DNA from: an uncultured Gemmataceae bacterium | GTDB lineage: Bacteria > Planctomycetota > Planctomycetia > Gemmatales > Gemmataceae | Direction of reading: 5' to 3' | Length of the DNA: 64,000 nucleotides | Assembly (NCBI GenBank): GCA_937923405.1 | Contig: CALDUY010000003.1 | Span: 99,918 to 163,917, forward strand | Shown here: in pieces, positions 10,796 through 12,767 of the stretch | Layout of the letters: every line of letters starts with the position of its first letter | How positions within the stretch are numbered: the first letter of the stretch is position 1 | Notes under the pieces: generated by a model | What the model was told of the DNA's origin: nothing | Databases searched by the model: none | Seen by the model: only the letters and a program-made list of their open reading frames with translations | Translations under genes and position numbers: made by a program

Positions 10796-11695
10796 TTAAC
10801 GCCGCTGGGCCGCTATCTGCCGCGCGAAGGCGACGAGATGCGACATCCGATCGCCGTGATGCGTGAAGGTCATCCGTTGGCGAATGGAGTCGGTCAGCGC
10901 TCGTCCGCCGACGGTGACAGCGATGCCCTGAAGGGCGGCTTCATGGTACATCGCCTCATAACCGGCGAGGAACCCCTCGACGTCAGCGAGATAGCTGCAC
11001 GACAACCAGATGAGGTTGGGTTTGGAATCGAGCATGGCCCGGCGAAAGGAGGCAAAAGGAGTGTTCGGTCCAATATTGAGGACGCGCCACCCCATGTCGC
11101 GGAAGGTCATCTCGATGAGTAGGTTGGCCAAGATGTAGTGATCGAACTCCGGACCACCGCCGATCGCCAAAAGGCGACCCGGTGGAACTTCACCCCCCGA
11201 TTCCAGTTTAGCCTTGAGGCCAAGCAAGGCCGACAAGCAAACCTGGGTCGCACGATGCTCTTCGTAGACATCGAGTTGGCCGCCAGCCCAGCCGTGACCA
11301 ACCCGAGCCATTACCGGAGCAATCACGTCATCGGCGATGCGGGCCACCTCCATGCCGGCTTGGTGCGCCGACAAAATCAGCATGCGAGCCTCATCGGCAT
11401 CGTCGACGAGCAAAGTGTCATAAAAGCGATCCGGCAAGGTGGCAAAATCGAACGGTTGGATCGTGGCGTCCTTGCCCAGCAAGAGGTTCAGATCGACGCG
11501 CGGCCAGTTACGCTGATTGGCATAGGTGAGGACGTCGCTGACGAGAATCTTGCGATGCCCTCCCTCAGTCCGCTGGGCCGGCAGCTTTTCCTCATCCACC
11601 CAACGCTTCACCGTAGTTTCGCTGACTCCCAGCGCGCGTGCTACCAGTTGCGGACTGACATAGCGGCGTTCTGGAATTAGTTGAGGAGTGGTCAC
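10796..11695 (-). CDS. MerR-family regulator with B12-binding domain (CarH/LitR type)
   Basis: A GTG start at 11695 gives 299 residues, the usual length for the family; the longer frame to 11833 has no recognisable sequence. Residues 10-52 form a MerR winged HTH (SETTVKRWVDEEKLPAQRTEGGHRK). Residues 75-165 are the helical B12-binding cap and carry the signature Wx9EH (W136, E146, H147) that marks CarH/LitR photoreceptors. Residues 172-299 are the Rossmann-like cobalamin domain; its lower-ligand histidine is probably H186 in PEFDHYILA, a slight variant of the usual ExHxxG. CarH proteins bind adenosylcobalamin, repress promoters as tetramers in the dark, and release DNA in light. It is divergent from the sigma factor gene beginning at 11967, its likely target. 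Confidence 0.85.
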   Translation of the reverse strand: MTTPQLIPERRYVSPQLVARALGVSETTVKRWVDEEKLPAQRTEGGHRKILVSDVLTYANQRNWPRVDLNLLLGKDATIQPFDFATLPDRFYDTLLVDDADEARMLILSAHQAGMEVARIADDVIAPVMARVGHGWAGGQLDVYEEHRATQVCLSALLGLKAKLESGGEVPPGRLLAIGGGPEFDHYILANLLIEMTFRDMGWRVLNIGPNTPFASFRRAMLDSKPNLIWLSCSYLADVEGFLAGYEAMYHEAALQGIAVTVGGRALTDSIRQRMTFTHHGDRMSHLVAFARQIAAQRR

Positions 11696-11834
11696 GGCTG
11701 TGGTCGTTCTCTTCCCTGGAAAGAATCCAAAACAGTCAAACCGACAAAATAGTATAAGCGATCGCACCGTCTCGATCCAGTCCCATGCTTCGACGAACTT
11801 CAACACACCCCAAAGGTTTACAGCGATTTCCACC

Positions 11835-11851
11835 TGTGACGATTCTGTAAT
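11835..11851. promoter_or_regulatory. possible operator half-sites for the B12-MerR regulator
   Basis: TGTGAC (11835-11840) and TGTAAT (11846-11851) are spaced exactly 11 bases apart, just upstream of the sigma factor promoter. CarH-type repressors are known to contact direct repeats of about this spacing around the -35 element. The match is short and could be chance. Confidence 0.25.
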
Positions 11852-11866
11852 CTTGATTTTTATCCC

Positions 11867-11894
11867 TTGACACTTTCCAAAAGGTTCTTAGACT
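11867..11894 (+). promoter_or_regulatory. promoter of the sigma-70 family factor gene
   Basis: TTGACA (11867-11872), a 16-base spacer and TAGACT (11889-11894) form a good housekeeping-type promoter. It would give a leader of roughly 65 bases before the ATG at 11967. A GTG at 11898 would lie almost on the transcription start, which argues against that start. Confidence 0.6.
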
Positions 11895-11966
11895 GAGGTG
11901 AACGATTTGAATGTTTTAGCTGTTTCAGCTGATTTGAAACGACCACATGCAGGGGGAGTCGGACTC

Positions 11967-12767
11967 ATGACGCAAGCAGCGCTGAACGAGACGCGGAAGC
12001 AGAAGCCCTCCTCGAACGAGGGACCATACCATGTCAGCCACCCGACGTTTGAATGCAGCGATGCTGAACGCGTCTATGGCCCGACTTCGGTGACACACGA
12101 CGAATCAGGGCAGTCGCACATGCCCGACGAGATCACCCGCGATTTTGCCAAGCGAATGCACTATGCCGCCTGGCGAGCGGCTCGCGCCAAGAGTGAAACT
12201 GCCAAGGCCCAGTGGCAGCGAACCTATTTGCACTTCCGTGATCGCATCGTCATGGGCAATCGCAAGCTAATTTACCGAGCTGTGCGTCGCTGGAGTCCGC
12301 CGCAGTCGATGGCCGACGACATGACCGGCGATTGCCAAATCGTGCTGATTCAGGCAGTGGCGGCCTATAATCCCTGGTTGGGTATTCGCTTCAGCACCTA
12401 TGCCTTTACCTGTCTGATGCGAGCGTTGTCGCGAATTTCTCAGCGTCAGGCGAACGATCGGCTGGCCAAGTCCATGACTCTGGATGCGCTTCCCGACGGA
12501 GAACCACGAGACGACAGCTCTGAGGATCTTCCAACCAGCCGCATGGCTCAGATCGACCAGTACCTCAGCGAGCATCATGAACTGCTGTCGTCGCGAGAAA
12601 AAAAGGTGCTGGCTCGACGATTCAGCCTGGACGAGCAAGCACGCTCTGGCACGCTGGAACAGGTGGGTCGTGAACTGGGTCTGTCGAAGGAGCGCGTCCG
12701 CCAGGTGCAGGCCAGTGCGTTAGGTAAACTGCGTGCGGTACTGCTGGATGGCGCGTTGCCCAGCTGA
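11967..12767 (+). CDS. RNA polymerase sigma factor, sigma-70 family
   Basis: ATG 11967 has AGGGGGAG (11951-11958) eight bases upstream, giving 266 residues. Region 2 is clear (residues about 105-165: ADDMTGDCQIVLIQAVAAYNPWLG then FSTYAFTCLMRALSR), and region 4 is at the C-terminus (about 205-260: LSSREKKVLARRF, then the HTH GRELGLSKERVRQVQ). Region 3 is missing or very short, so it is an alternative sigma, not the housekeeping one. The first 80 residues are not recognised. It faces the B12-MerR regulator across a shared upstream region, the same arrangement as litR/litS in streptomycetes, which suggests light- or B12-dependent expression (inference). Confidence 0.85.
   Translation: MTQAALNETRKQKPSSNEGPYHVSHPTFECSDAERVYGPTSVTHDESGQSHMPDEITRDFAKRMHYAAWRAARAKSETAKAQWQRTYLHFRDRIVMGNRKLIYRAVRRWSPPQSMADDMTGDCQIVLIQAVAAYNPWLGIRFSTYAFTCLMRALSRISQRQANDRLAKSMTLDALPDGEPRDDSSEDLPTSRMAQIDQYLSEHHELLSSREKKVLARRFSLDEQARSGTLEQVGRELGLSKERVRQVQASALGKLRAVLLDGALPS

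Follow-up and report, generated by a model that had tools for sequence, protein, structure and literature searches.

Relation to described regulators

The closest solved relative of the regulator described here is CtMerR of Chloracidobacterium thermophilum (8JBS/8JBT), a validated photoreceptor of adenosylcobalamin (AdoCbl), and the gene in question lies divergent from a sigma factor gene in a stretch of 64,000 nucleotides from an uncultured Gemmataceae bacterium (contig CALDUY010000003.1, positions 99,918–163,917), here called the window and numbered from its first letter. The two proteins share the helix-turn-helix (HTH) and B12 domains, the GxxW, EH and GxxxP motifs and the fold, but CtMerR reads D-L-H with His204 on the cobalt where the window regulator reads D-H-Y (PMC11796333; the papers cited by PMC number are drawn on in part throughout). 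The class I CarH/LitR proteins (TtCarH, and CarH of B. megaterium and M. xanthus) are alike in domain order, in the Wx9EH motif, in having a divergent target and in a tandem direct-repeat operator over the promoter, but the window regulator lacks the axial histidine and a counterpart of His132, and it falls far under the cut-off of the NF052513 profile. CarH operators are tandem 11-bp nnnnTnnACAn repeats (PMC9304148), whereas the unit found here is the 9-bp GRACGWTTT. In the LitR-LitS system of Streptomyces a CarH-type regulator also acts through a sigma factor, but LitS is an extracytoplasmic function (ECF) sigma factor and LitR promotes litS transcription in the light (PMC12705666), whereas here an operator behind the -10 box points to repression and region 4 of the sigma factor is RpoS-like.

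Two further systems resemble the locus in their target genes. The class II LitR proteins of Pseudomonas (PplR/PmlR) have a photolyase, ufaM, a flavin adenine dinucleotide (FAD) oxidoreductase and a short-chain dehydrogenase/reductase (SDR) in the target region, but they consist of the four-helix bundle only and PmlR2 works with a light-oxygen-voltage (LOV) partner (PMC9758184), whereas the window regulator has a complete Rossmann domain. The ChrR-RpoE singlet-oxygen system includes UfaM, UfaD and UfaO (PMC7380195), and genes of the same domain types stand behind the sigma gene in some relatives of the window pair; control here would instead lie with an HTH regulator and its operator, and no anti-sigma factor is found among the neighbour clusters, although no search aimed at one was made. 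Photocobilins keep the E/DxH motif (PMC10979010), and their C-terminal globin-like bilin domain is absent from the window regulator.

We consider it rather probable that a CarH-fold repressor with tyrosine in the axial position drives a sigma relay in Planctomycetia, holding the sigma gene off through a putative operator at 11900–11917 and being released, as predicted, by light. The wider proposal has somewhat less than an even chance: that these proteins form a planctomycete-wide clade of light sensors with the CarH fold but no histidine on the metal (Tyr-ligated or His-off AdoCbl, or another tetrapyrrole), with a 9-bp operator of their own and a dedicated sigma relay to photoprotection genes.

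The regulator and its putative cofactor pocket

The divergent pair is composed as follows:
10796–11695, minus strand: regulator with HTH_17, four-helix and Rossmann parts and the CarH fold, 299 amino acids (aa) from GTG 11695, in an open reading frame (ORF) that is open to 11833
11696–11966, no strand assigned: shared divergent promoter region
11967–12767, plus strand: sigma-70 family factor with regions 2 and 4 only, 266 aa from ATG 11967, in an ORF that is open from GTG 11898

The regulator ORF spans 10796–11833 on the minus strand and GTG 11695 is its likely start codon, since 89 of the 119 relatives listed are 280–310 aa long (median 302) and most of the predicted model before residue 53 has a predicted local distance difference test score (pLDDT) below 50. 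Residue numbers are those of the 345-aa ORF, and subtracting 46 gives the numbering from GTG 11695 (W182 = W136, E192 = E146, H193 = H147). A MerR-type HTH, a four-helix bundle and a B12 Rossmann domain are all present by profile search and in the predicted model, in which the regulator adopts the CarH fold. The Pfam domains are HTH_17 and B12-binding_2, with B12-binding at 27.7 bits, under its cut-off of 32.1; the Rossmann domain covers about residues 219–345, and the protein ends directly after it. An earlier note on this DNA had described a MerR-HTH/B12 protein with a Wx9EH motif (W136, E146, H147), and these residues are correct when counted from GTG 11695.

Three positions of the pocket are used below:
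11288–11290, minus strand: codon of Trp182, the W of Wx9EH, verified and invariant in 120 of 120 proteins
11255–11260, minus strand: codons of Glu192-His193, the EH of Wx9EH, verified and invariant in 120 of 120 proteins
11135–11137, minus strand: codon TAC of Tyr233, where TtCarH (H177) and CtMerR (H204) have the cobalt-ligating His

The GxxW and EH motifs of the adenosyl pocket are kept in all 120 proteins, GxxxP is present as GPNTP at residues 255–259, and W182, E192, H193, GxxxP, D231, W249, W276 and GG are 99–100% conserved in this set; in the sample of 77 loci EH is replaced by ER in 16. The lower axial histidine (GxxH / E-DxH) that defines class I CarH/LitR is absent, with Tyr233 instead. 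Tyrosine occupies this position in 109 of the 120 proteins, in 55 of 77 loci and in 55 of 75 loci of titled genomes, the last two samples overlapping (five of 80 loci, under 90 bits, are left out of the latter). The earlier assignment as a CarH/LitR-type AdoCbl sensor is not supported, since the axial histidine is tyrosine here and in most of the family examined, the NCBIfam CarH equivalog NF052513 gives 45.2 bits against a cut-off of 400, and neither the window region nor any of 27 relatives has an exact tandem TnnACA pair, as in the CarH 11-bp operator.

Three members of one genus (L045, L049, L050) have DYH, DHY and EHH at and around the axial residue, a natural His/Tyr swap among close relatives. 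In the alignment two related paralogues (L056, L061) show neither the W nor the EH, and these may be forms that bind no ligand. The supply of AdoCbl was considered as a discriminating test, but PduO adenosyltransferase is present in 111 of 119 genomes including the own one, and it does not discriminate.

The sigma gene promoter and the predicted tandem-repeat operator

The better start of the sigma gene is ATG 11967, behind AGGGGGAG at 11951–11958. Its product is above the cut-off of TIGR02937 (57 vs 42.9) and contains regions 2 and 4 only, with an RpoS-like region 4 (Sigma70_r4), so that the earlier description of a sigma factor of a different type, not a typical ECF, is supported in the form "not plainly ECF". 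The elements upstream of it are:
11867–11872, plus strand: -35 element TTGACA of the sigma gene
11889–11894, plus strand: -10 element TAGACT of the sigma gene
11900–11917, plus strand: predicted operator, two tandem 9-bp repeats GAACGATTT GAATGTTTT (consensus GRACGWTTTGRACGWTTT, 1 mismatch)
11918–11935, plus strand: a second pair of 9-bp units, AGCTGTTTC AGCTGATTT, degenerate and in register with the first; relatives do not conserve it, and their 3' flank is nearly without shared information

The TTGACA-16-TAGACT promoter had also been pointed out in the earlier note and is present, with 10 of 12 matches to the consensus. A promoter scan alone stays within chance (2 found, 1.4 expected from shuffles of 6 kb), but TTGAC recurs 29–37 nt ahead of the operator in 13 of the 25 divergent regions with an operator on the sigma strand, where 0.7 would be expected, indicating that the -35 box is beyond chance.

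The predicted operator begins 5 nt past the -10 box. The sequence ACGATTTG is found in 17 of 28 divergent regions (0.5 expected from shuffles), and the aligned common element is a tandem pair of 9-bp units, GRACGWTTT GRACGWTTT. This conserved shared operator had been missed by the earlier note and is new here. The consensus was derived from the 28 divergent regions; four near-duplicates were dropped from the sets used for the motif, the TTGAC spacing and TnnACA, and eight from the information profile, which uses 46 sites and is inflated by selection inside the 18 bp. When up to 2 mismatches are allowed, 54 of 78 loci have the element at the regulator, with 22 matches at up to 3 mismatches elsewhere in the same loci (971 kb). 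The independent test used 46 loci not extracted for motif finding, and 23 of them carry the operator, some without a sigma homologue in the stretch.

The wider survey covered 119 genomes, with a regulator match in 74 and the sigma factor at E <= 1e-30 in 46. Counts of pairs and operators use 70 regulator genomes, leaving out the distant G107, G110 and G112, whose proteins (L084, L087 and L083 respectively) are His-type, and G020 with a match of 57 residues; these four are included in the 49 genomes without regulator. At up to 1 mismatch the 119 genomes hold 93 operator sites against 29 for the reversed pattern; 55 of the 93 are directly upstream of the regulator or sigma gene, and 80 lie in the 70 regulator genomes with 13 in the other 49. 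The distant His-type proteins L080, L083, L084 and L087 have no operator at the locus. At up to 2 mismatches two sites occur in the own genome, which is 93% complete: the window copy with 1 and C5:226567 with 2; the latter is located between two ORF-like repeat-rich stretches, is no better than the control, and was rejected as an operator.

Conservation of the gene pair

Both genes are found in 39 genomes, and they are adjacent in 36, of which 34 have them divergent and 2 co-directional, so the divergent pair that the earlier note proposed to look for in related genomes recurs. In G051 and G068 the regulator is by a contig end and the arrangement relative to sigma is therefore not readable, and in G001 the two genes are far apart on one chromosome. 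More distant families have a diverged sigma factor beside the regulator (24–30% identity over 165–275 residues), and in some the sigma gene beside the regulator is on the same strand and matched over 53–82 residues only. Six loci (L194–L197, L199, L200) retain the sigma gene with no regulator match, and one of them (L199 in G034) has a perfect operator near the sigma gene, close to a contig end.

Candidate targets and a possible link to light

A cluster of an FAD oxidoreductase, a DUF1365 protein and a methyltransferase of the cyclopropane fatty acid (CFA) type adjoins the regulator, directly or behind sigma, in 12 of 78 loci (domains verified in L064), and by domain it resembles the furan-fatty-acid enzymes UfaD, UfaO and UfaM; UfaO carries DUF1365 (PMC7380195). 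Of the 20 genomes with both DUF1365 and the regulator, 12 have the two within 5 kb of each other; the figure is 12 of 21 if G112 is included, which has DUF1365 on a contig other than that of its regulator match. Ten of the 12 furan-fatty-acid-type loci have a local operator. The two that do not, L068 (G094) and L070 (G102), belong to genomes in which a perfect operator is found at another place, flanked by a DNA photolyase gene and a sigma gene and overlapping the open end of one of these two ORFs. Photolyase (PF03441) is within 3.5 kb of the regulator or sigma gene in G013, G017 and G043.

Operators also precede fasciclin genes in G108 (perfect), G099 (perfect; the ORF is alike but not domain-scanned) and G081 (1 mismatch); with 1 mismatch each they precede a sigma gene (G108) and a similar ORF (G099). 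Another is near a TspO gene in G003 and one near an SDR/DUF2867 gene in G109. These come from 20 inspected stretches among the 38 sites that lie elsewhere than at the regulator or sigma gene, and the remaining sites of the 20 have no evident light link, as expected of chance sites. Six loci (L077, L088, L093, L098, L103, L107) have a small fasciclin-domain protein divergent from and adjoining the regulator in the place of sigma (domain verified in L088).

In Pseudomonas strains with class II LitR, phrB and ufaM are light-induced, and an FAD oxidoreductase and an SDR gene are in the same region (PMC9758184). The light-controlled regulon suggested in the earlier note is plausible because a minority of relatives likewise place photolyase, furan-fatty-acid or fasciclin genes by the regulator or operator; the AdoCbl sensor that it had coupled to this regulon is not supported. 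A carotenoid link was considered and rejected, as the own genome has its two SQS_PSY genes next to each other on contig C5, unlinked to the pair.

Proposed mechanism and alternatives

The regulator should bind the tandem 9-bp repeats (predicted), since these track the regulator across genomes, also where no sigma gene is adjacent. It would thereby repress the sigma gene in the dark, because the site starts 5 nt after the -10 box and covers the transcription start, where a repressor would block the polymerase. The freed sigma factor would then relay the signal to unlinked genes, as suggested by the single convincing operator of the own genome; judged from the sequence, the regulator probably acts on the window promoter region alone, and anything further would go via sigma. 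The signal would be light or photo-oxidative stress, the repressor letting go when the cell is lit, because the regulator or operator adjoins photolyase, furan-fatty-acid and fasciclin genes in some relatives. The least certain of the five steps is the last, in which the pocket might still take a ligand of the cobalamin kind, with its adenosyl group on the W/E/H face and no histidine below the metal (Tyr-on or His-off); that the rest of the pocket is almost fully conserved speaks for a bound ligand, and the loss of the axial histidine speaks against His-on cobalamin. The clade, which is not filed as CarH, may work like CarH/LitR with a sigma relay but lacks the defining axial histidine.

Several observations weigh against this proposal. 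The H177A mutant of TtCarH loses AdoCbl binding and tetramer formation, and MxCarH with H193A is without function in vivo (PMC4557120), so that sensing through cobalamin may be impossible for the window regulator. TtCarH H132, the light-state ligand, corresponds to Ala183 in the window regulator, and of the 77 loci 13 have S, A, T or D at the axial position and 9 have H. The operator is absent at the regulator in 24 of 78 loci, although in two of these (L042, L048) it precedes a sigma gene of the same orientation, and 38 of the 93 sites lie elsewhere, a number close to the 29 matches of the control. Within the clade, five members with His (L045, L050, L057, L101, L105) carry the operator too, and it goes with the regulator family, not with the tyrosine. 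Conservation of the two genes apart from each other, which the earlier note had set against its own reading, applies to a minority only (no regulator match in 7 of the 46 genomes with the sigma gene, and a split pair in G001), yet the sigma gene of G001 keeps two overlapping operators. The light link is a minority feature: PF03441 is near in 3 of 57 genomes with a match above the cut-off, and DUF1365 and regulator are apart in 8 of 20 genomes. PF04244 photolyase, near in G013 only (1 of 44 genomes), was dropped as a link. The own genome has neither DUF1365 nor a PF04244 protein, its photolyase (C5:6734) is unlinked and without operator, and no light experiment on this family came up in the titles and abstract openings searched.

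Among the alternatives the best placed, though unlikely, is a B12-independent repressor with a relic pocket, released by a partner protein (an anti-repressor, as CarS is for CarA, or a LOV protein, as for class II LitR), in which case light is possibly read elsewhere. The axial histidine is lost at a site that tolerates S, A, T and D, its loss ends AdoCbl binding in TtCarH (PMC4557120), and release by a partner, CarS or a LOV protein, is known for the repressors CarA of M. xanthus and PmlR2 of Pseudomonas (PMC9304148; PMC9758184). The conservation of W182, E192, H193, GxxxP, D231, W249, W276 and GG would however be needless in a relic pocket, and apart from sigma no cluster of neighbouring proteins is present at as many as half of the 78 loci (ORFs of at least 110 aa). 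It is improbable that the regulator senses something else (free cobalamin, heme or another tetrapyrrole, or redox state) and controls a general stress sigma factor, with light incidental, as the recurring targets other than sigma, adjacent or operator-linked, are the photolyase, furan-fatty-acid and fasciclin genes. There is very little to expect from a conventional AdoCbl photoreceptor in which H232 replaces the axial histidine by a one-residue shift: H232 adjoins Tyr233 in the window protein and histidine stands there in 63 of 120 proteins, but proline does in 41 and the DPY members have no histidine at that place, and the spacing from D231 to GWRV equals that of CtMerR, so that the register shift is disfavoured by the spacing together with the DPY members. 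Least probable of all is that the repeats are the sigma factor's own promoter recognition and not the regulator's site, since, although located at sigma promoters in most divergent loci, they are present upstream of regulators whose fetched stretch has no sigma homologue (L055, L075, L077, L078, L093, L095, L098, L103 and L107, and likewise L047 and L060 but at contig ends) and are rarer in genomes without regulator (13 sites in the 49 such genomes, compared with 80 in the 70 that have it).

Neighbouring genes

Behind the regulator, at 7617–10767 on the minus strand, an ORF for a phosphatase of the protein phosphatase 2C (PP2C) type starts after 28 nt and is overlapped by a cytochrome P450 ORF, and the three ORFs could form one transcript. 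P450 and PP2C were rejected as parts of the system, being head-to-tail behind the regulator here but near it in 0 of 77 fetched relative stretches. On the other side lies:
12881–14704, plus strand: major facilitator superfamily (MFS) transporter downstream of sigma, with the same protein cluster at the pair in L052, L057 and L062 and farther off in L066, L072 and L076

A "PQWRGP..." beta-propeller protein resembling the pyrroloquinoline quinone (PQQ) type, named by look and not scanned, is near the regulator or sigma gene in 25 of 78 loci (L033, L035, L041 and others) and also in L198, and within 3 kb of the regulator in 19 of 78. No RNA element reaches the gathering score at 7000–16000.

Significance

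No B12-type photoreceptor of Planctomycetia was reported in the literature searched (titles and abstract openings, part of the results), nor was the clade described there (partial results, with subscription papers mostly uncovered). CarH is a tool of green-light optogenetics and its mechanism is framed around the axial histidine, and a natural clade that swaps this residue tests the need for histidine in light sensing. The clade is large and keeps the other pocket residues, and the operators of some members are near photolyase and furan-fatty-acid genes. With a defined operator and a proposed sigma relay, a light response in Planctomycetia can now be examined.
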